Positions 23,162 to 37,743 of a stretch of 64,000 bases of DNA are shown here, piece after piece. Origin of the DNA: an uncultured Draconibacterium sp. Its GTDB lineage: Bacteria; Bacteroidota; Bacteroidia; Bacteroidales; Prolixibacteraceae. The notes under the pieces were generated by a model. The model did no database searches, had not been told where the DNA came from, and saw only the letters and a program-made list of their open reading frames with translations. Position 1 is the stretch's first letter, and every line of letters starts with the position of its first letter. A program made the translations under genes and the position numbers. The DNA lies in NCBI RefSeq assembly GCF_963677155.1, contig NZ_OY781884.1, forward strand, positions 3,158,501 to 3,222,500. Direction: 5' to 3'.

Positions 23162-24031
23162 ATGGGACGGTTTTGGCATTCGCTGTACTTGTTTTTATTA
23201 GTGTCAATTACAGTTTTTGTATTTGTTTTTTTGCTTGTTTACGGAGCTGATTATTATCTGGCAGATTTGAGTGAACGTCATTTCCACGAGCAGGATATTT
23301 TGTTGAGGCCATCTGGGTTAATCGGGCACGGGCTCGGAGTTATTGGAGCTACGTTAATGGTCGTTGGCGTATTTGCTTATATGGCACGCAAACGATTCCG
23401 GTTTTTATCGCGGTTGGGAGTGCTAAAACACTGGCTCGAGTTTCATATTTTTTTATGCACACTGGGACCGATTATGGTCCTGTTTCACACGTCATTTAAG
23501 TTCGGAGGGATTGTGGCTGTAAGCTTCTGGAGTATGGTTGCGGTTGTTGTTAGCGGTGTAATCGGGCGGGTAATTTATTTGCAAATTCCTCGTACCATCG
23601 AAGGGCGTGAAATGAGTCTTAACGAGCTGAATAAAATGGAAGCCGATCTTTGGGCGCAATTTAGCGAGGGGAATGAAGCTCTTTCATCAGGTCTGCATAA
23701 AGTAAATGCAGCGTTAAAAACACAATTGTACCGCGAGGATGGTAACTACGTAAAACGCCTTGCAAATCGGTTCCGATTTGAACGCTCGTTAATTGCCGAC
23801 TTGAGAAAAGAACTAAAAGAGAAAGGCCTTAAAGGCGGAAACTACCGGAAGGCGATAAAAATATTGAAGTCAAAAATAATTATGAACCGCAGAATTGCAT
23901 GGCTTTCAACCATGCAAAAACTAATGCGATACTGGCACGTGGCACACCTTCCTTTTGCCTTAATAATGCTGGTGATAATGTTGGTTCATATTGTTGTGGC
24001 TTTGCTTTTTGGTTACACCTGGATTTTTTAA
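23162..24031 (+). CDS. Multi-histidine integral membrane protein, cytochrome b-like, first gene of the electron-transfer operon
   Basis: A 289-residue protein with membrane spans at about residues 7-30, 55-75, 95-115, 120-142 and 260-288. Histidines that could bind haem lie inside or at the edge of spans: IGHGLGVIGATLM, LKHWLEFHIFLC, MVLFHTSFKF, and YWHVAHLPFALIMLVIMLVH at the end. A SGVIGRVIYLQIPR stretch resembles the 'SG.iGRyiY..iPR' signature of b-type membrane proteins that accompany multihaem cytochromes. A soluble alpha-helical loop (about 150-255) separates the last span. I infer a quinol- or NAD(P)H-linked haem b subunit that passes electrons across the inner membrane. It is 3 bases from the next gene, hence co-transcribed. 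The exact family name is not certain. Confidence 0.65.
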   Translation: MGRFWHSLYLFLLVSITVFVFVFLLVYGADYYLADLSERHFHEQDILLRPSGLIGHGLGVIGATLMVVGVFAYMARKRFRFLSRLGVLKHWLEFHIFLCTLGPIMVLFHTSFKFGGIVAVSFWSMVAVVVSGVIGRVIYLQIPRTIEGREMSLNELNKMEADLWAQFSEGNEALSSGLHKVNAALKTQLYREDGNYVKRLANRFRFERSLIADLRKELKEKGLKGGNYRKAIKILKSKIIMNRRIAWLSTMQKLMRYWHVAHLPFALIMLVIMLVHIVVALLFGYTWIF

Positions 24032-24034
24032 CAG

Positions 24035-25369
24035 ATGGAAAACTTGCTTGAACAAATATTAATTTACGGCGCAGTAGTAATTTTTCTACTCGGCGTAGTT
24101 TTCATCTATATAAGGAAGTTGAGACGTGAATCGAAAATTGTTGAAGAAAAAATTGAACGGGCAAAAGAAGCTGGCTTGTATGAACCGGTTTCATTACATC
24201 CGGTTGTCGATCCAAATTCTTGTATTCAAAGCGGAGCCTGCGTGCGAGCGTGCCCAGAACATGATATTCTGGGAATTAGAAACGGAAAAGCAACAGTGAT
24301 AAATGCCAGCCAATGTGTGGGACATGGCGCGTGTTTTCATGCCTGTCCAACGCAGGCTATTTCGTTGTTTATTGGCACCGAGAAGCGTGGTGTCGATTTG
24401 CCACACGTTAATCAAACTTTTGAAACCAACGTAAAAGGAATGTTCATTGCCGGCGAAATGGGAGGAATGGGACTTATACGAAATGCGGTGGAGCAGGGAC
24501 GGCAGGCTGTTCAAAATCTGGCAAAAGGAATAAAACAGGAAGTGGGTACTGAATACGATTTGATTGTTATTGGTGCCGGACCAGCAGGAATTTCTGCTAC
24601 ACTGGAGGCAAAACGCCTGAAATTGAAAATAGTTACATTGGAACAAGATACACTGGGCGGAACTGTTTACACTTTTCCGCGGGCTAAAATTGTAATGACC
24701 TCCCCAATGGATTTGCCCTTGTTCGGAAAAGTAAAACTATACGAAACCAGCAAGCCCGAATTACTGGATTTGTGGAACGAAGTACTGTCGAAAAACGACA
24801 TTAAAATTTCCGAAAAACAAAAGGTTAATAAAATTACTAAAACAGAACAAGGCTTTCGGGTGGAATGTAACAACGGAGAACTGTATACCTCGCAAAGCGT
24901 TTTGCTGGCTATTGGCCGGCGAGGTACACCTCGAAAGCTAAATGTTCCGGGCGAAGATTTGCCTAAAGTTGCTTACCGTTTGCTTGAGCCTGAACTTATT
25001 TCGGGAAATAAAATATTGGTTATTGGAGGTGGAGATTCGGCTGTTGAATCAGCACTGTTGTTAGCGGATGCAAATGATGTTACTCTTTCGTACCGAAAAG
25101 AAACATTTTCGCGACTGAAACCAAAAAACCGAAAGAAACTGGAAGAAGCCATTGATTCAAAATTTTTGGATGTGATTTTAAATTCAAATGTAAACGCTAT
25201 TGAAGAGGAATGTGTGCATTTAAAAATTGCCGGACAGGAAGAGGAATTGACAATTACCAACCAGCTGGTTTACATTTTTGCTGGTGGAGAGTTACCTACC
25301 CAATTTCTGCGAAATGCAGGAATTGAAATAACTACAAAATTTGGCGAAGCACTATTAAAACACGCTTAA
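24035..25369 (+). CDS. Membrane-anchored 4Fe-4S / FAD-NAD(P)-binding oxidoreductase
   Basis: A 444-residue protein. Residues 6-26 form one membrane anchor; two ferredoxin-like motifs follow: C63, C69, C73 (CIQSGACVRACP) and C94, C100, C104 (CVGHGACFHACP). In both, the second cysteine of the usual CxxCxxCxxxCP is replaced (Ser66 and His97), so each set has only three obvious ligands plus a possible non-cysteine or neighbouring ligand. The rest is a two-dinucleotide-binding flavoprotein of the thioredoxin-reductase fold: VIGAGPAGISATLEA near 176 for FAD and VIGGGDSAVESALLLA near 330 for NAD(P). It has no CxxC redox disulfide after the FAD loop, so it is not a thioredoxin reductase. It probably feeds electrons from NAD(P)H or takes them from the haem b partner. 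Confidence 0.8.
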   Translation: MENLLEQILIYGAVVIFLLGVVFIYIRKLRRESKIVEEKIERAKEAGLYEPVSLHPVVDPNSCIQSGACVRACPEHDILGIRNGKATVINASQCVGHGACFHACPTQAISLFIGTEKRGVDLPHVNQTFETNVKGMFIAGEMGGMGLIRNAVEQGRQAVQNLAKGIKQEVGTEYDLIVIGAGPAGISATLEAKRLKLKIVTLEQDTLGGTVYTFPRAKIVMTSPMDLPLFGKVKLYETSKPELLDLWNEVLSKNDIKISEKQKVNKITKTEQGFRVECNNGELYTSQSVLLAIGRRGTPRKLNVPGEDLPKVAYRLLEPELISGNKILVIGGGDSAVESALLLADANDVTLSYRKETFSRLKPKNRKKLEEAIDSKFLDVILNSNVNAIEEECVHLKIAGQEEELTITNQLVYIFAGGELPTQFLRNAGIEITTKFGEALLKHA

Positions 25370-25373
25370 ACGA

Positions 25374-26969
25374 TTGAAAAAACAGGGAAAACATATCGCT
25401 TTTCTTTTGGCTCTATTTTTAGTTGCGGCAAAATCCTTTGCTCAATTATCTCCGGGCGAGTTATCTGCTGTGCATGCCCATTTGGAGGGACTAACAAACT
25501 GCACAAAGTGTCATGTTTTGGGCGAAAAGCAAACCTCGGCAAAATGCCTGGCATGTCATACCGAAATAAAAAGATTGGTAGATCAAAAGAAAGGTTATCA
25601 TGCATTGGCAGAAGTTACCGGGCAACGATGTGCTGCTTGCCATGGAGAACATTATGGTCGCGATTTTAAGGTGGTTCGACTTGATAAAGATACTTTTAAT
25701 CACGACTTAACGGGCTTTAAACTGGAAGCAAAACATGCGGAGATAAATTGCGCTGATTGCCACAAAGCGGAGTTTATAAAAAATAATATTTCACAGAAAA
25801 AATCGGCCGGCACTTACCTGGGATTGGGCACCGAATGTATCGATTGTCACACAGATGTGCACCAGAATACCTTGTCGCAAACCTGCACCAACTGCCACAA
25901 CCAGAAGACTTTTGTTCCGGCTACAGGATTTAATCATCAAACAACTGAATTTCCCTTAGTTGGTAAACACTGGGAGGTTGATTGTGCAAAATGCCATGAA
26001 AAAACTACTTTGAACGGAAAGGAATTTCAGGAATTTTCCGGGGTAGAATTTAAAAACTGCACCAGCTGCCACAAGGATGTGCACAACAATAAATTTGGCA
26101 ACGACTGTCGTAAATGTCACGATGAGTTTTCATTCACGCAAGTGAAGAATATTCGCGAGTTTAATCACAATAACACCGACTATCCGTTGCGCGGAAAACA
26201 TGTTGCGGTAGACTGTAAATCATGCCACACCTCAGGGAATCACACAAAAGCACTGCCATATAATAATTGTACCGATTGCCACAGCGATTACCATAAAGGG
26301 CAAATGGCAAAAAGCGGAGTTTCTCCCGATTGTAATTCTTGTCATTCGGTTAATGGATTTTTGCCTTCTTCTTTTGACTTCGACCGGCACAACAAAACCG
26401 AATTTGCCTTAAGCGGTGCCCACAAGGCAACACCGTGTTTTGAGTGCCATAAAAAAGGGAAAGAATGGAAATTTAAGTTCGATCAACTCAACTGTGTTAC
26501 CTGCCACGAAAACATTCACGAAAATAAGATGAGCAACAAATTCATGCCCGATTCTGATTGCCGCTCGTGTCATAACGAGGAAATTTGGAGTGAGGTAGAA
26601 TTTAATCATACAAAAACCAATTTTGATCTTGAAGGAAAACATAAAACGGTATCGTGTCGTGATTGCCATTTTACTGAAAATGCGGGGGTTGTAACACAGC
26701 ATTTTACAGGACTCCCGATGAACTGCGAAAACTGTCATGATGATATTCACAGGGGACAGTTTAATGAATCTGGAAAGAATGATTGTGTAAGGTGTCATAC
26801 TTTTGACAATTGGCAACCTGAAAAATTCAATCATGAAAATGCACGGTTTAAAATTGATGGGAAACATGAAGGCTTGGATTGCATCGCCTGTCATAAATCC
26901 ACTGATAATTTAATCCGGAATTACATCGTTTACAAATTTGAAGATATAACATGCGCAAGTTGTCATTAA
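25374..26969 (+). CDS. 20-haem c-type cytochrome (cytochrome c3/c7-like repeats), TTG start
   Basis: A 531-residue exported cytochrome. A signal peptide (IAFLLALFLVAAKSFAQ) is followed by 20 CXXCH haem motifs, first at CTKCH near residue 43 and last at CASCH, which are the final residues before the stop. Between motifs the phrase FNHxxTxFxLxGKH recurs (for example FNHQTTEFPLVGKH, FNHNNTDYPLRGKH), supplying extra histidines for bis-His haem ligation. The only sensible start is TTG at 25374, five bases after the upstream stop; the signal peptide begins right after it. This protein would lie in the periplasm and carry electrons between the inner membrane and the outer membrane barrel. It overlaps the next gene by 19 bases. 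Haem count is a direct motif count. Confidence 0.93.
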   Translation: MKKQGKHIAFLLALFLVAAKSFAQLSPGELSAVHAHLEGLTNCTKCHVLGEKQTSAKCLACHTEIKRLVDQKKGYHALAEVTGQRCAACHGEHYGRDFKVVRLDKDTFNHDLTGFKLEAKHAEINCADCHKAEFIKNNISQKKSAGTYLGLGTECIDCHTDVHQNTLSQTCTNCHNQKTFVPATGFNHQTTEFPLVGKHWEVDCAKCHEKTTLNGKEFQEFSGVEFKNCTSCHKDVHNNKFGNDCRKCHDEFSFTQVKNIREFNHNNTDYPLRGKHVAVDCKSCHTSGNHTKALPYNNCTDCHSDYHKGQMAKSGVSPDCNSCHSVNGFLPSSFDFDRHNKTEFALSGAHKATPCFECHKKGKEWKFKFDQLNCVTCHENIHENKMSNKFMPDSDCRSCHNEEIWSEVEFNHTKTNFDLEGKHKTVSCRDCHFTENAGVVTQHFTGLPMNCENCHDDIHRGQFNESGKNDCVRCHTFDNWQPEKFNHENARFKIDGKHEGLDCIACHKSTDNLIRNYIVYKFEDITCASCH

Positions 26970-29080
26970 TAATAGCAGTGTTGTTTTCGGTTTTTCAACT
27001 GAGGGCACAAGAAAATCCTCATGGCGAGGATCTTTCAATTGATTGCCTCGATTGCCACACCACCGAAGGATGGATTTTTTCGAAAGCGACGGCACGTTTC
27101 TCGCATGATTCAACTGATTTTGTGCTTGAAGGGCAGCATGCTGGTGCCGATTGTAGAACGTGTCACAGCTCACTGGTTTTTAACGATGCAAAAACGAACT
27201 GTATTGATTGTCATAACGATATGCACAACAGCACGGTTGACCTGGATTGTAGTCGTTGTCACGATTCACGCTCCTGGCTGGTCAGTAACATTACCGAGAT
27301 TCATCAAACCAGCCGATTCCCGTTGCTGGGAGCTCACAATACCGCCGATTGTTCGGCCTGCCATTCCGGTGCTTCATTGCTGGAATTTCAGCCTCTGGGT
27401 GTAGAGTGTATCGATTGCCACCGGGAGAATTACTATGCAACAACAGAACCGAATCATGTTGGATCAGGTTTTTCTACCGATTGTATGGAATGCCACCGGA
27501 TTGATGCCTTTTCGTGGGCGGCTCAGGGAATTAATCATGATTTTTTCCCCTTAACAAAAGGACATGCAGTTAGCAGCTGTATCGAATGTCATACATCAGG
27601 AGTTTTTGATCCGATCTCAACGGATTGTTTTAGTTGTCATGAATCTGATTTTGCATCGACAACAAATCCTTCGCATCAAAGCAGCGGTTTTTCAATGCAA
27701 TGCACTGATTGTCATACAACCGATCCGGGTTGGAGTCCGGCGGAGTTTAGCGTTCATGATGATTATTATTTCCCGATTTATTCAGGCAAACACCGTGGTG
27801 AATGGAATGATTGTTTTGATTGCCACACACAACAAAATAATTACTCGGTGTTTAGTTGCACCGATTGCCACGAACACAATCAGAATGAAACGGATGACGA
27901 ACACCGGGGAATAAACGGTTATTCATACAATAGCCTTGCCTGTTTTGCCTGTCATCCGCTGGGGCGTGAAGAGGGGGCATTTAACCACGACGCAACCGGA
28001 TTCCCGTTGAAAGGTGCACATGTTCAAAACGATTGTTTAAGTTGCCATGCTGCCGGTTTTTCGGGGACTTCAAGCTCATGTAGCAGTTGTCATACGTCAA
28101 ATTATAGCGAGGCAGCTAATCCGAATCATTTATCGGCCGGTATTTCTTTGGAGTGTGAACCATGCCACACTGAAGAGGGATGGACTCCATCGTTGTTCGA
28201 TCATACTGTAACCACTGGTTTTGAACTTGCCGGAGGACACGATAGAACACAATGTGCAGATTGCCATTTGGGAACAACAACCGCAGCTGATCCGGCTTGT
28301 ATCAGCTGTCACCAGGAGAATTATAATAATGCTGAAAATCATTTGGCTTCGAATTATCCAACCGATTGCTTGCAATGTCACAGCGTAAACACCTGGGATG
28401 GTGCGGATTTTGACCATAACTTAACTCAGTTTCCTTTAACCGGTGCGCACATTGCAACAGAATGTACCGCTTGCCATACTGACGGATATGCGGGAACATC
28501 GATGCAGTGTAATTCGTGTCATCAAAGTAATTTTAATAGTACGGCAAATCCAAATCATTCGTCTTTAGGATTGTCGATGAGTTGCGACGAATGCCACACG
28601 ACCAATCCGGGATGGGAGCCTGCGTTGTTTCCAAATCATAACGATTATTACGCATTAAACGGCGCACACGCAACTGTTGCAAATAATTGCTTTTTGTGTC
28701 ACGAAGGGAATTATACTTCAACAGCAACATCTTGTTACGGTTGCCATTCAACAGATTATAATAATACAACTGATCCTTCGCATGCGGCTGCCAATTTCCC
28801 AGTAGATTGTGAGTCTTGTCATTCGGAAAATGCCTGGGAACCATCCACTTTTAACCACGATGGGCAGTACTTCCCGATTTACACTGGAGAGCATCGTGGC
28901 GAATGGAGTTCATGTATCGATTGTCACACACAAACGAGTAACTATTCTGTGTTCTCGTGTATCGATTGTCACGAACATAATCAATCAGAAATGGATAGTG
29001 AACACCGAGATGTAAGCGGCAATGTTTATGCATCGGTAAGTTGTTATGAGTGTCATCCAACAGGCGAGAAAAATGATTAA
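26951..29080 (+). CDS. 28-haem c-type cytochrome
   Basis: A 709-residue exported cytochrome with 28 CXXCH motifs by my count, from CLDCH near residue 32 to CYECH close to the C-terminus. The signal peptide is LIIAVLFSVFQLRAQ. The repeat phrase FNHDxTxFPLxGAHVxxDCxxCH runs through it, and two blocks (about residues 250-325 and 620-700) repeat almost the same sequence (FPIYxGxHRGEW then DCHEHNQ), showing internal duplication. It overlaps the 20-haem gene by 19 bases and its stop overlaps the barrel gene start. No lipobox is present. It may be periplasmic or threaded into the barrel next door; location is inferred. Confidence 0.92.
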   Translation: MRKLSLIIAVLFSVFQLRAQENPHGEDLSIDCLDCHTTEGWIFSKATARFSHDSTDFVLEGQHAGADCRTCHSSLVFNDAKTNCIDCHNDMHNSTVDLDCSRCHDSRSWLVSNITEIHQTSRFPLLGAHNTADCSACHSGASLLEFQPLGVECIDCHRENYYATTEPNHVGSGFSTDCMECHRIDAFSWAAQGINHDFFPLTKGHAVSSCIECHTSGVFDPISTDCFSCHESDFASTTNPSHQSSGFSMQCTDCHTTDPGWSPAEFSVHDDYYFPIYSGKHRGEWNDCFDCHTQQNNYSVFSCTDCHEHNQNETDDEHRGINGYSYNSLACFACHPLGREEGAFNHDATGFPLKGAHVQNDCLSCHAAGFSGTSSSCSSCHTSNYSEAANPNHLSAGISLECEPCHTEEGWTPSLFDHTVTTGFELAGGHDRTQCADCHLGTTTAADPACISCHQENYNNAENHLASNYPTDCLQCHSVNTWDGADFDHNLTQFPLTGAHIATECTACHTDGYAGTSMQCNSCHQSNFNSTANPNHSSLGLSMSCDECHTTNPGWEPALFPNHNDYYALNGAHATVANNCFLCHEGNYTSTATSCYGCHSTDYNNTTDPSHAAANFPVDCESCHSENAWEPSTFNHDGQYFPIYTGEHRGEWSSCIDCHTQTSNYSVFSCIDCHEHNQSEMDSEHRDVSGNVYASVSCYECHPTGEKND

Positions 29081-30689
29081 GCGCATAATCAGAAATATCG
29101 GATTATTGTGCTTGCTCTTCTTAATTTTTGCAGTAGGCGAAACAAGTGCTCAGGAATCGACTAATCTGATGGAAGGAAAGGTGTCGTACATAACCGGAGA
29201 GAATATCTATGTACGTTTTACTTCAACAGAGCAAATTGAAAATGGCGATACGCTGTTTGTCAGGGATGAAAACAGTCTAACATCGGCTTTACTTGTTGAC
29301 CATAAATCTTCCATTTCATGTTTGTGTTTCAAATTAGCTGAGCACACATTTAAAGTAGACGATATTGTTTATGGCCGAAAAAACAATCCGGTTCGAGAAG
29401 TTGTGAAGCCGCAACAGGAATTGCCTGAAAAAGACGTAAATGAACAGGTATTAATTACTCAGGAACCGACAAAAGAACCGTCGAGGACACAGGATATAAG
29501 CGGTAGATTGTCCATGTCTTCTTACTCCAATTTTTCTGATGAGGGGGATAATATTCATCGATTCCGTTATACTTTATCGGCAAAAGCGTCGAATTTGTCA
29601 GGATCAAAACTATCTGCCGAAACCTACGTGTCATTTACGCATAAATTGCATAAGTGGGATGTAGTGCAGGAGAATCTGAACAATGCCTTGAAAGTTTACA
29701 GTCTGGCACTGAAATACGATATCAACGAGTCGGCAACTGTGTGGGCCGGGCGAAAAATAAATCCGCGCATTGCTAATGTTGGAGCAATTGATGGATTGCA
29801 GTTCGAGTATAAATTTAGAAATATGTTTGCCGGAATTGTTGGCGGTTCGCGACCCGATCACCAGGATTATGGCTACAATTTTGATTTGTTTGAATACGGA
29901 GCTTACGTTGGGCAGAGTGCAAAAACTGAAAATGGTTTTGTGCAATCGTCGCTGGCTTTTTTCGAGCAACGAAATACCGGAAATGTCGACCGGCGTTTTT
30001 TTTACATGCAGCACACCAATTCTGCTATTAAAAATTTAACCTTGTTTTCTTCGCTGGAGCTTGACTTATACAAACTTGAAAACGATAAGCCAACAAATAC
30101 CGTAAGTTTAACCAGCCTGTATTTTTCGGCGCGTTATCGCTTTTCAAAACGACTTTCGGTTTTTGGTTCGTATGACAATCGGAAGAATGTGATTTACTAC
30201 GAAACATTCAGGAATTACGCTGACGAGATTTTACAACAGGCAAGCAGACAGGGAGTAAGGGCCAGGATTAACTATCGTCCTGTAAATGGCTTTATTGTTG
30301 GAGCCAGCGCCGGAACACGTTTTCGCGATGAGGATTCGCGACCAACAAAAACATTGAATGGTTTTGCAACGTGGACAAAGGTACCGGCGCTGAATGCCTC
30401 GTTTAGTATTTCCACTAATTTGATGCAAACCAGCTATCTCGACGGGCAGGTTTACGGAGCACGATTATCAAAGAATCTTGTTTCAGGAAAATTATATACA
30501 ATGCTGCATTATCGTTGGGTAGATTTTAAATATGTGAATACTTTAACTAATTTACAGCAGCACATTGGAGAGCTTGATTTGTCGTGGCAGTTCAGTAAAA
30601 AGCTGTATATATTGGCGAACTACGAGGCAACATTTCAGGAGCAACAGTTGTTTAACAGGTTGTACCTAAATTTGAGAATTAAATTTTAA
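29073..30689 (+). CDS. Outer-membrane beta-barrel protein of the cytochrome operon (porin-like)
   Basis: A 538-residue protein starting at ATG 29073, inside the end of the cytochrome gene (stop 29078-29080). The signal peptide is GLLCLLFLIFAVGETSAQ. An N-terminal domain of about 100 residues (EGKVSYITGENIYVRF to FKVDDIVYGRK) resembles a small beta-domain seen before some barrels; a linker rich in Pro/Glu/Gln follows; then alternating beta strands (SGRLSMSSYSNFSDEG to NRLYLNLRIKF) with a terminal phenylalanine, typical of outer-membrane barrels. No sequence family was recognised. By position it is the best candidate for the barrel that would sheathe the cytochromes, as MtrB/PioB do, but no sequence similarity to them is claimed. 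Confidence 0.7.
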   Translation: MIKRIIRNIGLLCLLFLIFAVGETSAQESTNLMEGKVSYITGENIYVRFTSTEQIENGDTLFVRDENSLTSALLVDHKSSISCLCFKLAEHTFKVDDIVYGRKNNPVREVVKPQQELPEKDVNEQVLITQEPTKEPSRTQDISGRLSMSSYSNFSDEGDNIHRFRYTLSAKASNLSGSKLSAETYVSFTHKLHKWDVVQENLNNALKVYSLALKYDINESATVWAGRKINPRIANVGAIDGLQFEYKFRNMFAGIVGGSRPDHQDYGYNFDLFEYGAYVGQSAKTENGFVQSSLAFFEQRNTGNVDRRFFYMQHTNSAIKNLTLFSSLELDLYKLENDKPTNTVSLTSLYFSARYRFSKRLSVFGSYDNRKNVIYYETFRNYADEILQQASRQGVRARINYRPVNGFIVGASAGTRFRDEDSRPTKTLNGFATWTKVPALNASFSISTNLMQTSYLDGQVYGARLSKNLVSGKLYTMLHYRWVDFKYVNTLTNLQQHIGELDLSWQFSKKLYILANYEATFQEQQLFNRLYLNLRIKF

Positions 30690-30701
30690 AACGATAACAG
30701 A

Positions 30702-31439
30702 ATGATGAGGATGACTAAGATTTTGATGATACTGGCAGTTGCCGGCATGTTTTTAGCGTGTGTGAGGAATAAAAATGGCGCGACAACTCAGACTCAGAGC
30801 GAGAGCGCATTCAATATGATAAAGGTTTCGGAAGTGATTCAGGGAGAGAGTTACACTTACATTAGTGCAACTGAAAACGGCATTGCAAAATGGATTGCAG
30901 TAGCGAAACAAAACGTAAATCCGGGCGAAGTTTTATACTACTACGATGCACTCCCGATGAAAGATTTCCATAGTAAAGAGATCGATAAAACCTTTGATAT
31001 AATATATTTTGTAAATAATATCAGTAAAACACCCGGGGCAAAACAACTAGCCATGAGTGGCGGAATGCCATCGTCGCACCAGGGGAAAGTGGCTGTTAGC
31101 GATGCCGAAGTTGAGATGAGTAAGGTTGATGGAGAACTGAAGATTGCTGATATTTTTGCAAACAAAGCTGATTATAGCAGCAAAGAATTTGAGATTAAGG
31201 GTGCTGTGGTAAAAGTAAACGAACAGGTGATGGGTAAAAACTGGGTACACATTCAGGATGGCACCGGCAGCGGTGGTAATTACGATCTGACAATTACAAC
31301 GCAAGCCAATGTAAAGGTGGGCGATGTGGTTACTTTTAAAGGAAAACTTACACTAAATAAAGATTTTGGTGCCGGTTACTTTTACGAGGTGATCATGGAA
31401 GACGGATCGTTGGTTGAAAAGCAGGGAGCAGCAATCTAA
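30702..31439 (+). CDS. NrfJ-like lipoprotein with C-terminal OB-fold
   Basis: A 245-residue lipoprotein, lipobox FLAC with the lipidated cysteine at residue 20. The N-terminal part (residues about 35-105) matches the NrfJ-type domain: VSEVIQGESYTYISA, then GIAKWIAVAKQNVNPG, the short MKDFHSKEIDKTFDIIYFV. The C-terminal part (about 140-240) is OB-fold-like: GAVVKVNEQVMGKNWVHIQD, DLTITTQANVKVGDVVTFKG. NrfJ and this domain accompany nitrite-reductase and other multihaem cytochrome clusters; the exact job is unknown. It is the last gene of the operon. Its stop codon overlaps, on the opposite strand, the stop of the terpene cyclase gene by three bases. Confidence 0.75.
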   Translation: MMRMTKILMILAVAGMFLACVRNKNGATTQTQSESAFNMIKVSEVIQGESYTYISATENGIAKWIAVAKQNVNPGEVLYYYDALPMKDFHSKEIDKTFDIIYFVNNISKTPGAKQLAMSGGMPSSHQGKVAVSDAEVEMSKVDGELKIADIFANKADYSSKEFEIKGAVVKVNEQVMGKNWVHIQDGTGSGGNYDLTITTQANVKVGDVVTFKGKLTLNKDFGAGYFYEVIMEDGSLVEKQGAAI

Positions 31440-33229
31440 ATTTTAGAAGTATATCCTTTAACTGCTTTAAGGTATGCGGTTAAAGGATATAACTTTTCAT
31501 CGTACCACAACGATGCAAAATACAATCCGATAGGGGCTTTTTTAAGCCCGTTTTTTTTGTAATAAATGTCGAGCCATGCTAGTCCCTTTTTGATCTCAGT
31601 TTTTGATTTTGTGCTGTTCAAAGCCGCAACAGCAAGTGCTGTTTCTTCAATCGTTCCTGCAATTCCATAGTCACCTCCCCAGCTGCCATTTTCATTCTGA
31701 ACTTTTAGCAGGAAGTTATTTCCTTTAGCAATCATCTTTTTAATTTTTGCGACCAATACCAGCTCATCTTTCAATAACCGTTTTGCTTTTTGAAAATAGG
31801 TGAGTACGCGGGCGGTTCCATACACCGGATTTTTATGGTTTGGTGTGTGCTGGTTTCCAAACCAAAGCGGCAGCCACGAACCATTTTCTTTTTGGTGTTT
31901 TTCCAGATAATCGACAGCTTTATTTATGGCTGATTTATACTGCTTTTTCTGTTTTGAAGTTAGCTCAGCCCTGTATGAATCCAAAAGCTTGGCAAGTGCT
32001 AAAACACAGTGTCCGGTTAAATCGGCACAGCTTTGGTCGAAAGGTAACTTTCCCCAGCCACGTGAAAATGTTGGGAAGCCTCCATCGTTATTCTGAAGTT
32101 GAAGGAGCCATTCGCCACCAACTAGAATTTCCTCCCTGATTGTATGGTGTGGTGCCAGATCTAAAAGTGCCAGAATTGCTCCGGGTGTATCGTCGCAGTC
32201 GGGTACCGATCCTGAGTAATTTGTCCAGCCCCATCCGCCCGGCGAAGTTCCGTTAAACGGATGTATAGTTTTATTCTGTACCGAAAGCAGGTGGTTGACA
32301 ATATGCTTTTGTTGGATTTCTGAAAGCACTTCGTTTTTTCGTTCACCCAAAGCTTTTACACTGAGAGTAGTTACCCATGTTGACAGGTCGATATCTATGG
32401 GCCAGCTGCCGTCTTCGCGTTGTGTACGCTTTAAAAAGGCAATTCCTTTGTCTACAACCATCGAGTTTTTCAATCCTGCATTTATCAAGCTTAATGCAAC
32501 AAAGGCGGTTAAAGGAATAGCTTCCAGAAAACCACCGCTGTCAGGTAGCGTTCGTTCCAGAATTTTAAGTGCTTTCTTTTCGGCTTTTGTCCTGATGGCT
32601 CGTGTTAATCCGTTGGATTTTTTCTTGCGGAATACCACAATTCCAACGGCAATCAATGCCGGAATTGCATAACTCACCACACTCAGATTCAGCAAGCGAT
32701 AAAACCGGCGTGGTAACAAAGCGAGTTCGAAAGGCAACTGCGGAATATGTTTAAAGCCATCTTCGCCGGGAATTCCACAAAGTGCACACAACGTTAAAAT
32801 GGGCACCGAGAATGTATAATCTTTTTGGTAGTGATCGAGAATAACTTTTGCTACCTGTGCAGAGAGAACATTAACATTTTGCGTTTTCAGGTAGTCAGCC
32901 AGTTTTTGCTGTGTTGCTTTTACTTCAGGATTGTTTTCTATGTATAAATTTAATGCAGCGTAAGAAAGTAACGAAGTCGAAATATTAGCAGGACTTTCGG
33001 GAGTGTCACCATAACCTCCATCAGAATTCTGGTTTAACGAAAGCCATTTCAATCCCTTTTTAATTTCTTGTTGATGAAGACTGGCATCGTGGAAATGAAG
33101 AGCAGCAACAGCAACGGCAACTCCGAGTGCACTTGACGATAATTCTCCTGACCAAAAGCCATCCTCGTTAAGCTCGCCAAGCAAGATGTCGCTCAGTTCT
33201 TTAAACCGTATTTCTAACTTATCCTTCAT
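31436..33229 (-). CDS. Class II terpene cyclase (squalene-hopene cyclase superfamily)
   Basis: A 597-residue protein if started at the ATG 33227-33229; eight extra codons of open frame lie upstream but are not needed. The catalytic DXDD motif is DCDD at about residues 344-347, in VPDCDDTPGAILALL. QW-type repeats are visible (QNSDGGYGD, QREDGSWPI, QNNDGGFPTFSRGW, QKENGSWLPLW, QNENGSWGG), and the N-terminus has GELSSSALGVAVAV. The (alpha/alpha) barrel fold binds a linear isoprenoid and cyclises it by protonation. It is close in length to squalene-hopene cyclases, but its neighbours and the hydrophobic insert near 190-215 (YAIPALIAVGIVVFRKK) make a squalene substrate uncertain. It is the last gene of the cluster; a 155-base gap separates it from the one before. 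Confidence 0.85.
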   Translation of the reverse strand: MKDKLEIRFKELSDILLGELNEDGFWSGELSSSALGVAVAVAALHFHDASLHQQEIKKGLKWLSLNQNSDGGYGDTPESPANISTSLLSYAALNLYIENNPEVKATQQKLADYLKTQNVNVLSAQVAKVILDHYQKDYTFSVPILTLCALCGIPGEDGFKHIPQLPFELALLPRRFYRLLNLSVVSYAIPALIAVGIVVFRKKKSNGLTRAIRTKAEKKALKILERTLPDSGGFLEAIPLTAFVALSLINAGLKNSMVVDKGIAFLKRTQREDGSWPIDIDLSTWVTTLSVKALGERKNEVLSEIQQKHIVNHLLSVQNKTIHPFNGTSPGGWGWTNYSGSVPDCDDTPGAILALLDLAPHHTIREEILVGGEWLLQLQNNDGGFPTFSRGWGKLPFDQSCADLTGHCVLALAKLLDSYRAELTSKQKKQYKSAINKAVDYLEKHQKENGSWLPLWFGNQHTPNHKNPVYGTARVLTYFQKAKRLLKDELVLVAKIKKMIAKGNNFLLKVQNENGSWGGDYGIAGTIEETALAVAALNSTKSKTEIKKGLAWLDIYYKKNGLKKAPIGLYFASLWYDEKLYPLTAYLKAVKGYTSKI

Positions 33230-33384
33230 TCGAAATTTTCTATTTAAACACAAAGAAGCTAAGACACGAAGTTAATTTTCTCGCGAAGTTATCAAGGCGC
33301 AAAAAACTTCTGAAATCAAAAATCGTTAATCATCATTCGTCATTCATTCTTCCTCCTTTTGCCTTTCAACTTTTTCCTTTTGCC

Positions 33385-34218
33385 TTATTCTCGTACAAGG
33401 CTTCCCAGCGCCAGCAACCCATAAAACGTATATTCCAAGTCGTGGGTTTCGTCGCCGTCGCCGGAAAGAAAAGCTCCTGAAAGATAATTCATTTGAATAA
33501 AATCAAGACAATCGGGAGTGATCAACCGCAGATCATAATTGGTTTCAGCCAAAGAGAAAAGTGCCACTCCTGTTGATAAAGTATCGCTGAACGGTGTGGT
33601 TTCAAAAGTTCTGAACCCTGCTTCTTTATGATGAAATTTCAATAATAATTTTTGGTATTTTTTGTAGCTTAATTCAAGATCAAATCGGGCAAAACAAAGT
33701 GCCGAAACCAGACTGCAAGGAGAGTTTTCTTTCACTTTGTAAAAGGGCAACCAAATACGCGCCATCAGGTTAAAAAGAAAGCGGCTTTTGGCTGTCGCAT
33801 CAATGGTTAATGCCAGCAAAAAAAAGCGATACGAAACATCCATAAAATTGTGCCCCGAAAAAACTTTTTTTAGCAACGAAAACAGCGATTCGTTTTTCTG
33901 CTGATGAAACAGCTCCGCTTTCATTAGATTTAGCGCAAGTTCTTCAACGGTACTTGATGTTTCAGGTTGTTTCGAAATGTAGGCTTTTAATTGCTCAATT
34001 TCTTCTTTTTGTTCTGTAGCTAAACTTAGCCAGCAGCCAAAAAGCGAGTAGTAAGGATCGGGATTTCCGGCACGGTCGCAAAAGCCACCCGAGCTATGTT
34101 GCTGGCTTTTTATAAAATCAATGATTTCGTGTTGTATTTCGGGCGATAAAGTTTCAAATCCTAAAGAAAGTCGCCGAACCAGTTTTTTATAGATCGCGAT
34201 TTTCTTTGGTTTACTCAT
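33385..34218 (-). CDS. Half-length prenyltransferase/squalene-cyclase-like repeat protein
   Basis: A 277-residue helical protein of the prenyltransferase-beta/squalene-oxidase repeat fold. It begins with QQHSSGGFCDRAGNPDPYYS, the typical 'GGF.dr.g..D..yt' start of one alpha6-alpha6 barrel half; GFRTFETTPFSDTLSTGVALFSLAE is a second repeat and GAFLSGDGDETHDLEYTFYGLLALG a third. No DXDD motif is present; the acidic DGDETHDLEY could be a metal or substrate site. It overlaps the preceding gene by 8 bases, so co-translation with the DUF116-synthase gene is likely. It may be a partner of the big cyclase or a separate prenyl-lipid enzyme. Function not established. Confidence 0.65.
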   Translation of the reverse strand: MSKPKKIAIYKKLVRRLSLGFETLSPEIQHEIIDFIKSQQHSSGGFCDRAGNPDPYYSLFGCWLSLATEQKEEIEQLKAYISKQPETSSTVEELALNLMKAELFHQQKNESLFSLLKKVFSGHNFMDVSYRFFLLALTIDATAKSRFLFNLMARIWLPFYKVKENSPCSLVSALCFARFDLELSYKKYQKLLLKFHHKEAGFRTFETTPFSDTLSTGVALFSLAETNYDLRLITPDCLDFIQMNYLSGAFLSGDGDETHDLEYTFYGLLALGSLVRE

Positions 34219-35794
34219 TGGTAGTTTCTGATTTAAAGATTTTCCCCATTACTGCATAGAGGCTCAGACGAAGTTTGGAATTTTCCAGTTTGTCGAGTTC
34301 TGCGTAGCAGTTGTCAATGTATTTCTGTAAGTATCCTTGCGCAACTTCCAGTAGTGCGGTTTCATCAATCAGTTTTCTGAATTCAGCAGCCTGTTCGAAC
34401 AAATTTGTTGGTGTTTCTTTTGCCTGATCTGCAAAATGTTTGTTCAGTAAAGCCAGCAGGAAGGGATAATCGCCGGTTTTTTCAGCGGAGTGTTGTTCGG
34501 TATATTCATTCAGGTCGTCGCGAATTTGGTAGGCAATTCCCATAAAATCGGCAAACTGCTCCAATGTTTCCTGTTCTTGTTTGTTTGCTCCGCCAACAAT
34601 TGCTCCCAGCAATAAGGCCACTTTAATGGCTTCACTGGTTTTATTTTTAAAAACCCCGATCATTTCATCGGGCAACAGTTGTATTTTGCCGTCGTTAAAA
34701 AGAATGTCGACGCCTTGTCCGCGTGTTAATTGAATGTGTGAGCGTGCAATAAAACGCAGACATTTTTTCATGATTGCATTCGAAATATCCAGTTCACTCA
34801 ACAACTCGTAACCTTTTCCAATCAGAAAATCTCCGGCGTTAATGGCCTGAGGCACGCCGTATTTTTCATGCGCAGTAAGCGTGTTGTAACGCTGGTTAGC
34901 ATTGTCTTCTATATCGTCGTGAATTAGTGATGCCTTATGAAAACACTCAATAATAAGCGTTAAAGGCTGGAGAAGCTCATTGCTATTGGTATTTGAATAG
35001 GCAAGGAAACTTAACGCTGTAAGAAGTGGTCGTATCCGTTGACCATCAACAATCAAATATTCCTGTGCAATTTGTTCGGTTTTATCGTGACCCTGAATGT
35101 ATTTTTCGATGTTTTCTTTGATGAAAAATTCTTCGATCCGGTTTTTTAATAATGACACCGAAATGGGCTGGTGTTCATCATCTGCTTCATACGAACGCAT
35201 TTCATCCAGAATCCATTTAATATCGGCGCGGGTTTCTTCACAGCCATCAAAAAGCAACGGGATGCCAATTACCGGCACTGCCGCATTTGAAACCGGTTCG
35301 AACGAGCGTTGTAACACCGGCATACAACTCACGCCAATTACGGCATCAATCGATCCTTCTTCCACCAATCCAACCGCAACTGTGGTTCCTTCTGCCACCA
35401 GGTTGGCATATCCTTTTGATTCGGCCTCAATTAACAGATCGTCGATTGGGCAGGCCTTACATCCTGCACAGTTTAGCCCCAGTTCATCGAATAGGCCCTC
35501 GCATTTTTCTTTGTTATTCAAACATTGAGGGAGCAACAAAAGCCGGCGATTCATGGGTGTGGCTTTTACCGTTTTGCGCCACGATTCGTTGCCCAGCAAA
35601 ACCATTGCAAAAGGAATAAATTCAGCAGAGATTTCTTGTTCGTGCACCAAATCAGCGGCCAGTTCTTCCAGTTTCAGAATGTTTACAGGAGGACTTAGAC
35701 CGATACTTTCAATCATAGCAGCAGCGGCCTTACGCATTTTGTTGCGTACGGACGATTCCTCAGGAACTTTTAGTATGCCGTTTGTTTCCTTCAT
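34211..35794 (-). CDS. DUF116 - polyprenyl synthetase fusion protein
   Basis: A 527-residue fusion, started at ATG 35792-35794 one base after the radical SAM gene stop. Residues about 20-195 are DUF116: MIESIGLSPPVNILKLEEL, LPQCLNNKEKCEG, LNCAGCKACPIDDL, AVIGVSCMPVLQRSFEP. Its cysteines suggest a metal or Fe-S site. From about residue 215 on it is a trans-isoprenyl diphosphate synthase: GQRIRPLLTALS, first Asp motif HDDIEDNANQRY, KTSEAIKVALLLGAI, second Asp motif RDDLNEYTEQ. Both metal-binding motifs are present (the last residue of the second is Glu for Asp). It makes a polyprenyl diphosphate of unknown length, presumably the cyclase substrate. DUF116 has no known activity; fusion to this enzyme is unusual. 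Confidence 0.85.
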   Translation of the reverse strand: MKETNGILKVPEESSVRNKMRKAAAAMIESIGLSPPVNILKLEELAADLVHEQEISAEFIPFAMVLLGNESWRKTVKATPMNRRLLLLPQCLNNKEKCEGLFDELGLNCAGCKACPIDDLLIEAESKGYANLVAEGTTVAVGLVEEGSIDAVIGVSCMPVLQRSFEPVSNAAVPVIGIPLLFDGCEETRADIKWILDEMRSYEADDEHQPISVSLLKNRIEEFFIKENIEKYIQGHDKTEQIAQEYLIVDGQRIRPLLTALSFLAYSNTNSNELLQPLTLIIECFHKASLIHDDIEDNANQRYNTLTAHEKYGVPQAINAGDFLIGKGYELLSELDISNAIMKKCLRFIARSHIQLTRGQGVDILFNDGKIQLLPDEMIGVFKNKTSEAIKVALLLGAIVGGANKQEQETLEQFADFMGIAYQIRDDLNEYTEQHSAEKTGDYPFLLALLNKHFADQAKETPTNLFEQAAEFRKLIDETALLEVAQGYLQKYIDNCYAELDKLENSKLRLSLYAVMGKIFKSETTNE

Positions 35795-35795
35795 A

Positions 35796-36968
35796 TTAAC
35801 CGTAGGCCCCAAAGCCAAAAAATGCCCGTTTTTTGGCAAAACGGTACAACCAGCTCTTTTCGCGAACGGGTTTTGCCGAACCATGACTGGAAACTTTTTT
35901 CATTTGGTTCAGCCGTTCAACTTCGTTATCCCGGCCCGATGTATCTTTTGCGGAGTGTTGTTTTATATAATTAACCAACCACTGCGGATCGTCCATAAGG
36001 ATGCAGCCCGTGGTAAGTTTTGGTATTTCTGTTTTAAATTCGGACAGGAAAGTTGAATTGCGGTAAATACTTTCCAGGTCGCCATCGGCCACATTGTTGG
36101 TGGCAAACTGAATTACCGGACAAGGTTCAATATCGCCCGATGCATTAATGTGGTGACTTAAGCCCGATGCCGCCGGACACAAACCCTTACCATTCTCATC
36201 CCAGTAGGCATCAATAATGGCAATGTTATATTTCTGACGCGCATTCACCATAAACTGACGAAGTTGCTCAATCTGTTCTTCCGAAAGGCAGAGGTCTACT
36301 GTTGCGTCTTGTCCCGCTGGCCGATAAATATAGTACCACAAATAAAGTACTCCACGGTCGATCAGCGATTGAATAAAATCATCAGAGAAGGCCAGATCGA
36401 TATTCGATTTACAAACACTCATCGCCACACCTGTTATCAATCCTGCGTCGGTTGAATGATCGATGGCGGATTGCGTTTTTTTGTAAACATTTTTTCCTCC
36501 ACGGCGCACATCGGCAACTTCATTGTCGCCTTCAAAACTGATTAGCGGCGAAACGTTGGCCAGTTTTCGCAAACGTTCAGCAATATCTTTTGTTAATAAG
36601 GTGCCGTTGGTAAACAGCTGAAAATAGCAGTCGGAATGTTTTTCGAAAACATCGAAAAGTGGTTTGTATAGCAGTGGTTCGCCGCCCAGTATTCCAAAGA
36701 AATAAGATCCTTTTGCTATCGACTGCGTAATGATGGAATCCAACATTTCGAGCGACATGTGTGCGTTCTGTTTTTTATGGGTTACCCAGCAGCCCTGGCA
36801 ATTTAGGTTGCAGTCGTCGGTAACCGAAATAAAATGAAATGCAGGAAAGAAGTCGCCTTTTTTCAAACGTTTTTGAAAACGCTGAATACCACGGGCACCT
36901 TTTATACCCATGTTGTATGTAAACTTATACAGGCATTTTTTATCTGTTTTCAGTAATTGTTTAAACAT
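35796..36968 (-). CDS. Radical SAM enzyme with C-terminal Fe-S (SPASM-like) region
   Basis: A 390-residue protein. The radical SAM triad is in DDCNLNCQGCW (CxxxCxxC, about residues 54-61), followed by GILGGEPLLY (GGEP motif), LFTNGTLL and SFEGD. A second cysteine set lies around residues 265-310: GLCPAASG, DIEPCPVIQ and LTTGCILMD, as in SPASM/twitch auxiliary cluster proteins. The N-terminus (residues 1-40) is basic and may touch the membrane or nucleic acid. It overlaps the Fe-S protein gene by 8 bases and is one base from the synthase fusion. It could modify a prenyl chain or a cyclised terpenoid, as HpnH-type radical SAM enzymes do for hopanoids, but sequence does not show the substrate. 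Confidence 0.85.
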   Translation of the reverse strand: MFKQLLKTDKKCLYKFTYNMGIKGARGIQRFQKRLKKGDFFPAFHFISVTDDCNLNCQGCWVTHKKQNAHMSLEMLDSIITQSIAKGSYFFGILGGEPLLYKPLFDVFEKHSDCYFQLFTNGTLLTKDIAERLRKLANVSPLISFEGDNEVADVRRGGKNVYKKTQSAIDHSTDAGLITGVAMSVCKSNIDLAFSDDFIQSLIDRGVLYLWYYIYRPAGQDATVDLCLSEEQIEQLRQFMVNARQKYNIAIIDAYWDENGKGLCPAASGLSHHINASGDIEPCPVIQFATNNVADGDLESIYRNSTFLSEFKTEIPKLTTGCILMDDPQWLVNYIKQHSAKDTSGRDNEVERLNQMKKVSSHGSAKPVREKSWLYRFAKKRAFFGFGAYG

Positions 36969-37743
36969 CGCTTTTGGGATTCTTTAAGCTGTTCTTCAAT
37001 TCCTCCAGGGCTCTTTTTTTCTCTTCTTCGGCTTGTTGAAAAGCGCCTTGCCTGAAAATGTTTCTGCGAGCATTGTTGCGCTCGTTCAGCATAACAAACA
37101 AATTTCCTTTTTGCTCGTTGCCCGATGGCTTTTTATCACTGGTTGGTTCTGCACCTGATAAGGCCGAATTTTCTGGTAATCGCGGAAAGATGATTGCTGA
37201 GGCGGGGCAGGTGCGTCCGCATGCCGGACAGTTGTTTTTACACGACAACGGATTAACAACCTCAAGACTTTTTTTGTTGTACGAATAAACCCCAAAAACG
37301 CAGAATCGTGCACATTGTCCACAAAGGGTGCAACGTTCTTTATCGATGATAGGGTACCATGCCGGAACTTTCAGGTCGGTCTTTTTTATTTCGTAAAAAG
37401 TTTGGTCTTGTTTCCCGTCTATTTTAGCTGATAACTCAGCTGTAATCTGTTCGGTGTCTGCTTCTCTGAAATTAAATACCTCGAAATCGCTAAGTCGTAT
37501 CTCGTTCTGTTCGAACATATTTTTAATGGCCCGTGGGTAACAGGCAGCGATTAGTGTTTTATCGTAATCGTTATCGATTTTGTGCAGGAAGTCCTTCTCA
37601 TTCAGCGAAAAAGCACACAGGTCGTGTAGCTCGTATATATCAACTCCGAGCGGTTTAAAAGCTTCAGAAAGCTCTTCCTTTTTGTCGTCGGAAATGATGC
37701 CCGCACCACAGTTACAAAAAATCAGGCAAGTTTTGTTTGTCAT
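36961..37743 (-). CDS. Fe-S protein with HdrA-like N-terminus and ferredoxin clusters
   Basis: A 260-residue protein, first gene of the cluster. The N-terminal 110 residues (TCLIFCNCGAGIISD, then DLCAFSLNEKDF and TLIAACYPRAIK) look like the small Rossmann-like domain with Cys-rich loops at the start of HdrA-type proteins. Cluster ligands follow: CTLCGQCARFC and CKNNCPACGRTCP, giving one or two 4Fe-4S centres. The C-terminal 60 residues are charged and probably coiled coil (RQGAFQQAEEEKKRALEEL). It may supply electrons to the radical SAM step or reduce an isoprenoid double bond. The 8-base overlap with the next gene supports coupled translation. Confidence 0.75.
   Translation of the reverse strand: MTNKTCLIFCNCGAGIISDDKKEELSEAFKPLGVDIYELHDLCAFSLNEKDFLHKIDNDYDKTLIAACYPRAIKNMFEQNEIRLSDFEVFNFREADTEQITAELSAKIDGKQDQTFYEIKKTDLKVPAWYPIIDKERCTLCGQCARFCVFGVYSYNKKSLEVVNPLSCKNNCPACGRTCPASAIIFPRLPENSALSGAEPTSDKKPSGNEQKGNLFVMLNERNNARRNIFRQGAFQQAEEEKKRALEELKNSLKNPKSDV

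Follow-up and report, generated by a model that had tools for sequence, protein, structure and literature searches.

A conserved Bacteroidota operon encodes a candidate electron conduit with a cytochrome that lengthens in three-haem modules

Detailed knowledge of extracellular electron transfer is confined to a few lineages, and the inner- and outer-membrane parts are often assembled from separate loci. In the MtrCAB, PioAB and MtoAB systems, one operon encodes a beta-barrel and exported multihaem cytochromes; MtrB-type barrels have 26 strands. The GSU1996-type triheme nanowire cytochromes of Geobacter are chains of three-haem units, and in the transmembrane NADPH oxidases and MsrPQ a cytoplasmic nicotinamide/flavin module feeds two b haems across the membrane. 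In the OmbB-OmaB-OmcB and Ext conduits of Geobacter, barrels of unrelated types are each joined by an inner and an outer cytochrome, according to the available part of PMC6344600. Here we describe a six-gene operon (genes A to F, positions 23162-31439) in a 64,000-nucleotide window, the whole stretch of DNA that was analyzed, from an uncultured Draconibacterium sp. whose genome is a single contig of 5.27 Mb. The combination of a barrel with multihaem cytochromes is of a known kind; its most distinctive features seem to be its conservation across the phylum Bacteroidota, an inner-membrane module probably of the nicotinamide adenine dinucleotide (phosphate) [NAD(P)H] and not the quinol type, and a modular rule, new here, for the length of one cytochrome. 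We consider it probable that this operon encodes an electron conduit spanning the whole cell envelope, from NAD(P)H through B, A, C and E to D. Its features are as follows (aa, amino acids; FAD, flavin adenine dinucleotide).

Gene A, 23162-24031, plus strand: 289 aa; predicted five-helix inner-membrane protein, candidate two-haem cytochrome b
Gene B, 24035-25369, plus strand: 444 aa; predicted N-terminal membrane helix, two Fe-S motifs, FAD/NAD(P) domain
B cluster motif 1, 24221-24256, plus strand: CIQSGACVRACP; second Cys replaced
B cluster motif 2, 24314-24349, plus strand: CVGHGACFHACP; His where the second Cys is expected
Gene C, 25374-26969, plus strand: 531 aa, TTG start; exported 20-haem cytochrome
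Gene D, 26951-29080, plus strand: 709 aa; exported 28-haem cytochrome
D head, 26951-27985, plus strand: residues ~1-345, 13 haems
D tail, variable, 27986-29077, plus strand: 15 haems, five modules in the window
Gene E, 29046-30689, plus strand: 547 aa; predicted outer-membrane beta-barrel, signal peptide, small N-terminal beta domain
E barrel domain, 29493-30686, plus strand: residues 150-547; 22 strands of at least 8 residues in the model
Gene F, 30702-31439, plus strand: 245 aa; lipoprotein, optional member

An initial annotation of this DNA had proposed a tight six-gene operon, and all six open reading frames are indeed present, separated by gaps of 3 (A/B), 4 (B/C) and 12 (E/F) bases or overlapping by 19 (C/D) and 35 (D/E) bases. 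Because several E homologues start about 10 codons later than the called E start, the real D/E overlap may be about 5 bases.

The annotated totals of 20 CXXCH motifs in C and 28 in D are exact. Shuffling the residues gave means of 0.2 and 0.4 motifs and maxima of 3 and 4, respectively (500 shuffles each), and these shuffles, together with conservation, rule out a chance origin. Pfam and NCBIfam place both proteins among c7/c3-type multihaem cytochromes, and both carry Sec signal peptides of the plain type, as read by eye. Non-motif histidines number 1.23 per haem in 71 C proteins and 1.13 in 63 D proteins, which would leave room for bis-His ligation. Both proteins pass the MtrC/MtrF haem domain cut-off (PF22113; C 39.8 and D 54.2 bits versus 30), a general haem-domain likeness. 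They fall below MtrA/DmsE (TIGR03508; 45.1 and 39.5 bits versus 192.2), a decahaem family where C and D have 20 and 28 haems, and below OmcA/MtrC (TIGR03507), for which C scores 14.1 bits versus 209.3 and D has no match. A nitrite or sulfite reductase was rejected, as neither cytochrome reaches such a family at cut-off. More broadly, no unrelated role for homologues of the operon is named in the family libraries or in the available parts of the literature surveyed, in agreement with the initial annotation. The DNA pattern for CXXCH is found 472 times in the organism's own genome, compared with 265 for a reversed control; in six other haem-cytochrome stretches, all outside the operon, no open reading frame has more than eight motifs.

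The E protein is modeled as a 22-strand beta-barrel (predicted local distance difference test [pLDDT] score of 83, from 42 sequences) and its C-terminal residue is Phe, as the first description of a barrel with a terminal Phe had it. That description recognized no family for the barrel, and this view held: none of 42 barrels reaches a curated family or, by sequence, a solved structure, and the window's E and F proteins lie below every Pfam and NCBIfam family cut-off. Profile and sequence searches of solved chains returned only chance-level hits for A (E values of 0.33-5) and E (1.1-5) and no match for C and D at an E value of 0.01. MtrB_PioB, which we take to be PF11854, is absent from the 19 Pfam families matched at E values up to 1 by any of the 42 barrels, no solved chain of this type was matched by the E protein at E values up to 5, and the predicted strand number (22) differs from that of MtrB-type barrels. 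ExtJ appears weakly in 3 of the 42 barrels (E values of 0.03-0.14, far under the cut-off), a comparison with NCBIfam models rather than with Geobacter sequences. The operon resembles the Geobacter conduits in having a barrel with a putative inner and a putative outer cytochrome and differs from them in its haem numbers, modular D and inner-membrane module. By eye, F has a lipobox (LAC) and is presumably NrfJ-like or OB-like; its counterpart in Emticicia contains a GW domain. Elsewhere in the organism's own genome, a 291-aa protein (L017:9418-10293) weakly resembles E residues 72-187 (30%, E value of 6e-5).

Unlike MtrCAB, PioAB and MtoAB, the present set carries its inner-membrane module within the operon. 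In A, H56, H95, H109, H259, H262 and H276 are invariant in all 57 aligned sequences and include two pairs (H95/H262 and H109/H276) set 14 residues apart. Hydropathy predicts helices near residues 8-26, 53-71, 92-112, 116-134 and 265-283, and the pattern suggests a two-haem b cytochrome whose His pairs lie on two helices running in the same direction. The charge of loop 74-92 (6 basic and 0 acidic residues) and of insertion 141-257 (25 basic and 13 acidic) fits a cytoplasmic location, which would place H95/H262 at the cytoplasmic end and H109/H276 at the periplasmic end. Although the window's A lies below every family cut-off in Pfam and NCBIfam, weak matches at E values up to 1 link its family to DUF4405 (43 of 57 members, best E value of 2.6e-4) and cytochrome b561 (8 of 57, best 6.9e-3). 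The structure model is helical (pLDDT 76); its fold matches to ABC transporters, receptors and helical bundles were discarded, as their Z scores were at chance level for helical models. NapC/NirT (PF03264), which covers the quinol oxidases CymA and ImcH, matched C and D below its cut-off (14.5 and 16.8 bits versus 24.1) and A not at all. In CbcL and MtoC, a two-haem b cytochrome of the HydC/FdnI kind is fused to c haems, whereas A is unfused.

Pfam and NCBIfam assign B to FAD/NAD(P) oxidoreductases with 4Fe-4S-type motifs (Pyr_redox_3, 155 bits; Fer4_10, 41 bits), and hydropathy predicts a single N-terminal helix at residues 8-26. Among 87 sequences, the FAD motif and the GGGDSA nucleotide motif are kept, position 4 of cluster motif 1 is S, T, C or A (46, 33, 7 and 1 sequences), and motif 2 has His instead of its second Cys in every case, which suggests a His-ligated Fe-S cluster. 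Only the six cluster-motif cysteines are conserved at 93% or more and none is conserved outside the motifs, which rules out a disulfide reductase for cytochrome maturation; B also scores below the disulfide-reductase cut-offs (YpdA, 163.9 versus 339.9; TrxR, 90.5 versus 343.45). It is best read as a membrane-anchored FAD/Fe-S oxidoreductase of the NAD(P)H type without a redox disulfide. The proposed passage from B to A resembles the NADPH oxidases and MsrPQ in layout, a likeness distinct from demonstrated homology; unlike those systems, B resembles thioredoxin reductase, carries two Fe-S motifs and would pass its electrons on to multihaem wires.

A genome scan with an alignment of A returned 421 encoding stretches. 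The best 80, from which loci were built, are all named as Bacteroidota-group organisms, one of them labeled Chlorobiota. All 52 loci that reach E have the order A-B-cytochrome-cytochrome(-cytochrome)-E, with F behind E in 19; the remaining 28 show fewer genes, many of them ending at a contig edge. Synteny places A and B with the cytochromes and E, consistent with the earlier idea that inner- and outer-membrane modules share one operon. Among 392 sampled genomes of the phylum, A is found in 44, E in 38 and both in 37, the single genome with E only having a 31-residue match with a stop. The barrel was found in 27 of 61 genomes including its own, one match (G029) being 22 residues long. In 8 of 17 stretches around A from other genomes of the phylum, the B homologue stands behind the barrel position rather than behind A; one of the eight is L126, whose barrel the profile missed. 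Ten of the 17 have a protein of ~200-250 aa after A (the one scanned is a tetratricopeptide repeat protein), and A and E are ~20 kb apart in G354. The gene set also occurs on plasmid pEMTOL02 of Emticicia oligotrophica, the only plasmid record, with 36-62% identity and the same A-B-cytochrome-cytochrome-E order, preceded by a ResB/CcsA cytochrome-assembly gene. Near this plasmid operon (L013:91-1407) lie genes for a DUF5777 beta-barrel and a Rieske protein. A phage origin was rejected because nothing in the phage collection matches A.

The two cytochromes differ sharply in how they vary: D grows by three-haem modules while C is nearly fixed. We compared loci L021-L100 and L111-L144 with the window, dropping duplicates and loci with cytochromes cut at contig ends; this left 73 operons, of which seven with three cytochromes were excluded from the haem rule and 66 have two. 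Among these 66, the haem number of C is 20 in 55, 23 in 8, 26 in 1 and 19 in 2, while D ranges from 13 to 88. The number of D sites equals 3n+1 in 56 of 66 by CXXCH alone and in 66 of 66 once CX3CH is also counted, a widening adopted after inspecting the ten exceptions and then applied to all 66. Nine exceptions have one or two CX3CH motifs in the expected slot, and in L055 the cytochrome genes are swapped. Four operons outside the 66 (L013, L014, L015 and L019) fit the rule by CXXCH alone (D of 40, 31, 34 and 46 haems). The rule arises because motif spacing repeats in three-haem units: D mostly opens with spacings of 36, 16, 16, 34, 19 and 25 (exact in 45 of 73 and close in most others) and continues with repeats of ~31-37, 15-16 and 23-28. 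The window's D comprises one haem plus nine three-haem modules. CX3CH at the last-but-one haem slot of D (L052, L061, L069-L072, L076, L097 and L099) constitutes a regular non-canonical haem site.

Close relatives indicate how D changes in length. In a sister species (L021), the complete D has 13 haems and shares 82.5% identity, across 343 residues, with the D head of the window. In sister species, extra D haems appear as in-frame 429-bp tandem repeats, with 2.8 copies (94% match) in a 40-haem D (L128) and 4.7 copies (88% match) in a 52-haem D (L130); no such repeat was found in the window. The increase in size from 709 to 995 aa corresponds to two six-haem units of 143 aa each. In 42 operon pairs with E more than 75% identical, which have members in common and hence are not independent, the haem number is equal for C in 42 and for D in 12. 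L023 and L133, for instance, have barrels 91.7% identical, yet D of 52 versus 13 haems. Such repeats can be misassembled in draft genomes; single-contig genomes alone give D of 13 (L133), 28 (window) and 40 (L135) haems within the genus and of 22 (L119), 28 (L112), 37 (L114) and 43 (L111) elsewhere. With 88 CXXCH motifs in 2204 aa (L082) and 82 in 2075 aa (L088), two D proteins are, to our knowledge, among the most haem-rich proteins known.

Like the Geobacter triheme nanowires, D is a chain of three-haem units, but it has a 13-haem head and up to 88 haems, and both C and D lie below the three-haem nanowire domain cut-off (TIGR04257; 25.4 and 19.8 bits versus 40). The nearest precedent for its length change comes from Burkholderiales conduits, in which a large barrel-adjacent cytochrome gains or loses CxxCH domains between relatives (PMC7399161, in its available part, which also reports OmbB- and MtrB-like conduits in Ignavibacteria). 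Here, in contrast, the change is quantized in three-haem units, phylum-wide, and accompanied by a nearly fixed partner cytochrome. The available parts of other reports mention novel unnamed conduits in Bacteroidetes and a 51-haem conduit protein on an unbinned contig (PMC6344600), a Bacteroidetes cluster from an anode that combines six cytochromes with a barrel (PMC8258643), and 440 novel clusters, not individually described, from a homology-free scan (PMC11475568). Neither the gene set nor the length rule is described in the available parts of the literature surveyed (including PMC6295460, PMC7829351, PMC5492636, PMC10809760 and PMC12977616); the supplementary lists of PMC11475568, PMC6344600 and PMC8258643 lie outside this survey and may hold an earlier listing without description.

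In the conduit that we consider probable, an inner-membrane anchor would hold B with its domains on the cytoplasmic side, where it would take electrons from NAD(P)H via FAD and two Fe-S clusters, and A would pass them over the inner membrane by two b haems, from the H95/H262 to the H109/H276 end. C would bridge the periplasm as a 20-haem wire of fixed size, and the end of C, the conserved 13-haem head of D, or both may form a junction inside the 22-strand E. D would be the surface wire, its length determined by the number of three-haem modules. The constancy of C and the variability of D fit a C that spans a gap of set width and a D that lies outside, where its length is unconstrained; at roughly 1 nm per haem, as in the GSU1996 wire, an 88-haem D would be far longer than the periplasm. 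Electron flow would most likely be outward, disposing of reducing power onto minerals, humics or other cells; we favor such a sink over a main respiratory chain because outward flow from NAD(P)H would spend membrane potential. A fuller version of this proposal is tentative: a phylum-wide, quinone-bypassing conduit from cytoplasmic NAD(P)H to the surface, with a fixed 20-haem C and a surface wire that lengthens in three-haem quanta (13-88) by recombination among in-frame repeats, making it a length-tunable cable.

Other readings of the same genes differ mainly in where electrons enter or leave. It is possible, though somewhat unlikely, that A oxidizes menaquinol, as CymA, ImcH and CbcL do, and that B provides a side entrance or works in a different reaction. 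Cytochromes b often bind quinone. Known inner modules of such conduits are quinol oxidases (PMC6295460, in its available part), but B stays in the set even where gene order is rearranged, and A lacks a match to NapC/NirT. The same wire could also run in reverse, with Fe(II), metal or partner cells as electron donors and NAD(P)+ or the respiratory chain as the end point. This appears unlikely: by established energetics, reduction of NAD(P)+ is uphill from donors near 0 V. It would nonetheless suit the copies in groups with aerobic members, and such conduits can run both ways, according to the available part of PMC8258643.

Two further explanations deny the barrel or D its place in a wire across the outer membrane. 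It is quite unlikely that, instead of sheathing haems, E acts as a pore for exporting or assembling D, or as a porin in its own right, with D polymerizing or remaining attached outside. The structural matches of the E model are porins and receptors, the best ones including ushers and ordinary porins, and D is long and repetitive; against this, the signal peptides of C and D are, by eye, of the plain Sec type and E strictly accompanies A. It is very unlikely that the proteins have no surface role and store electrons in the periplasm or act there as a terminal reductase. Capacitor roles have been proposed for multihaem proteins, and D has no recognized surface signal, but the ten D outliers checked contain no CXXCK, a protein of up to 88 haems would, if extended, outreach the periplasm, and the cytochromes are linked to a large barrel.

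Several observations weigh against the outward conduit that we favor. The A model matched no haem protein in the fold comparison with solved structures, no surface signal was recognized on D, and haem passage through E is a proposal built on genes and single-protein models. Seven A-positive genomes have no E match at threshold, although three of those A matches are fragments, and the seven three-cytochrome operons encode 14 D-like proteins, of which 6 depart from the 3n+1 rule. Moreover, a purely anaerobic role may be wrong because an operon copy occurs in Emticicia, an aerobe.

The Bacteroidota groups with this gene set include ones usually taken as aerobes or fermenters. If the outward conduit is real, an entire electron path would be one transferable gene set across an environmentally abundant phylum, and a redox role would be predicted for Bacteroidota of sediments, sludge and lakes. 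Within one genus, D occurs with 13, 28, 40 and 52 haems alongside closely similar partner proteins, a series that would offer a natural experiment on wire length versus electron transfer.

Elsewhere in the genome, a second cytochrome cluster (L150, C1:4519000-4537000) encodes proteins with 4, 6, 7 and 6 haems, a small b-type-like membrane protein and, by eye, a large protein like ResB/CcsA synthase. Convergent to the operon in the window, a minus-strand cluster (31436-37743) encodes two cyclase/prenyltransferase-toroid proteins, a DUF116 and polyprenyl-synthetase fusion, a radical SAM protein and an Fe-S protein, and looks like a terpenoid pathway.

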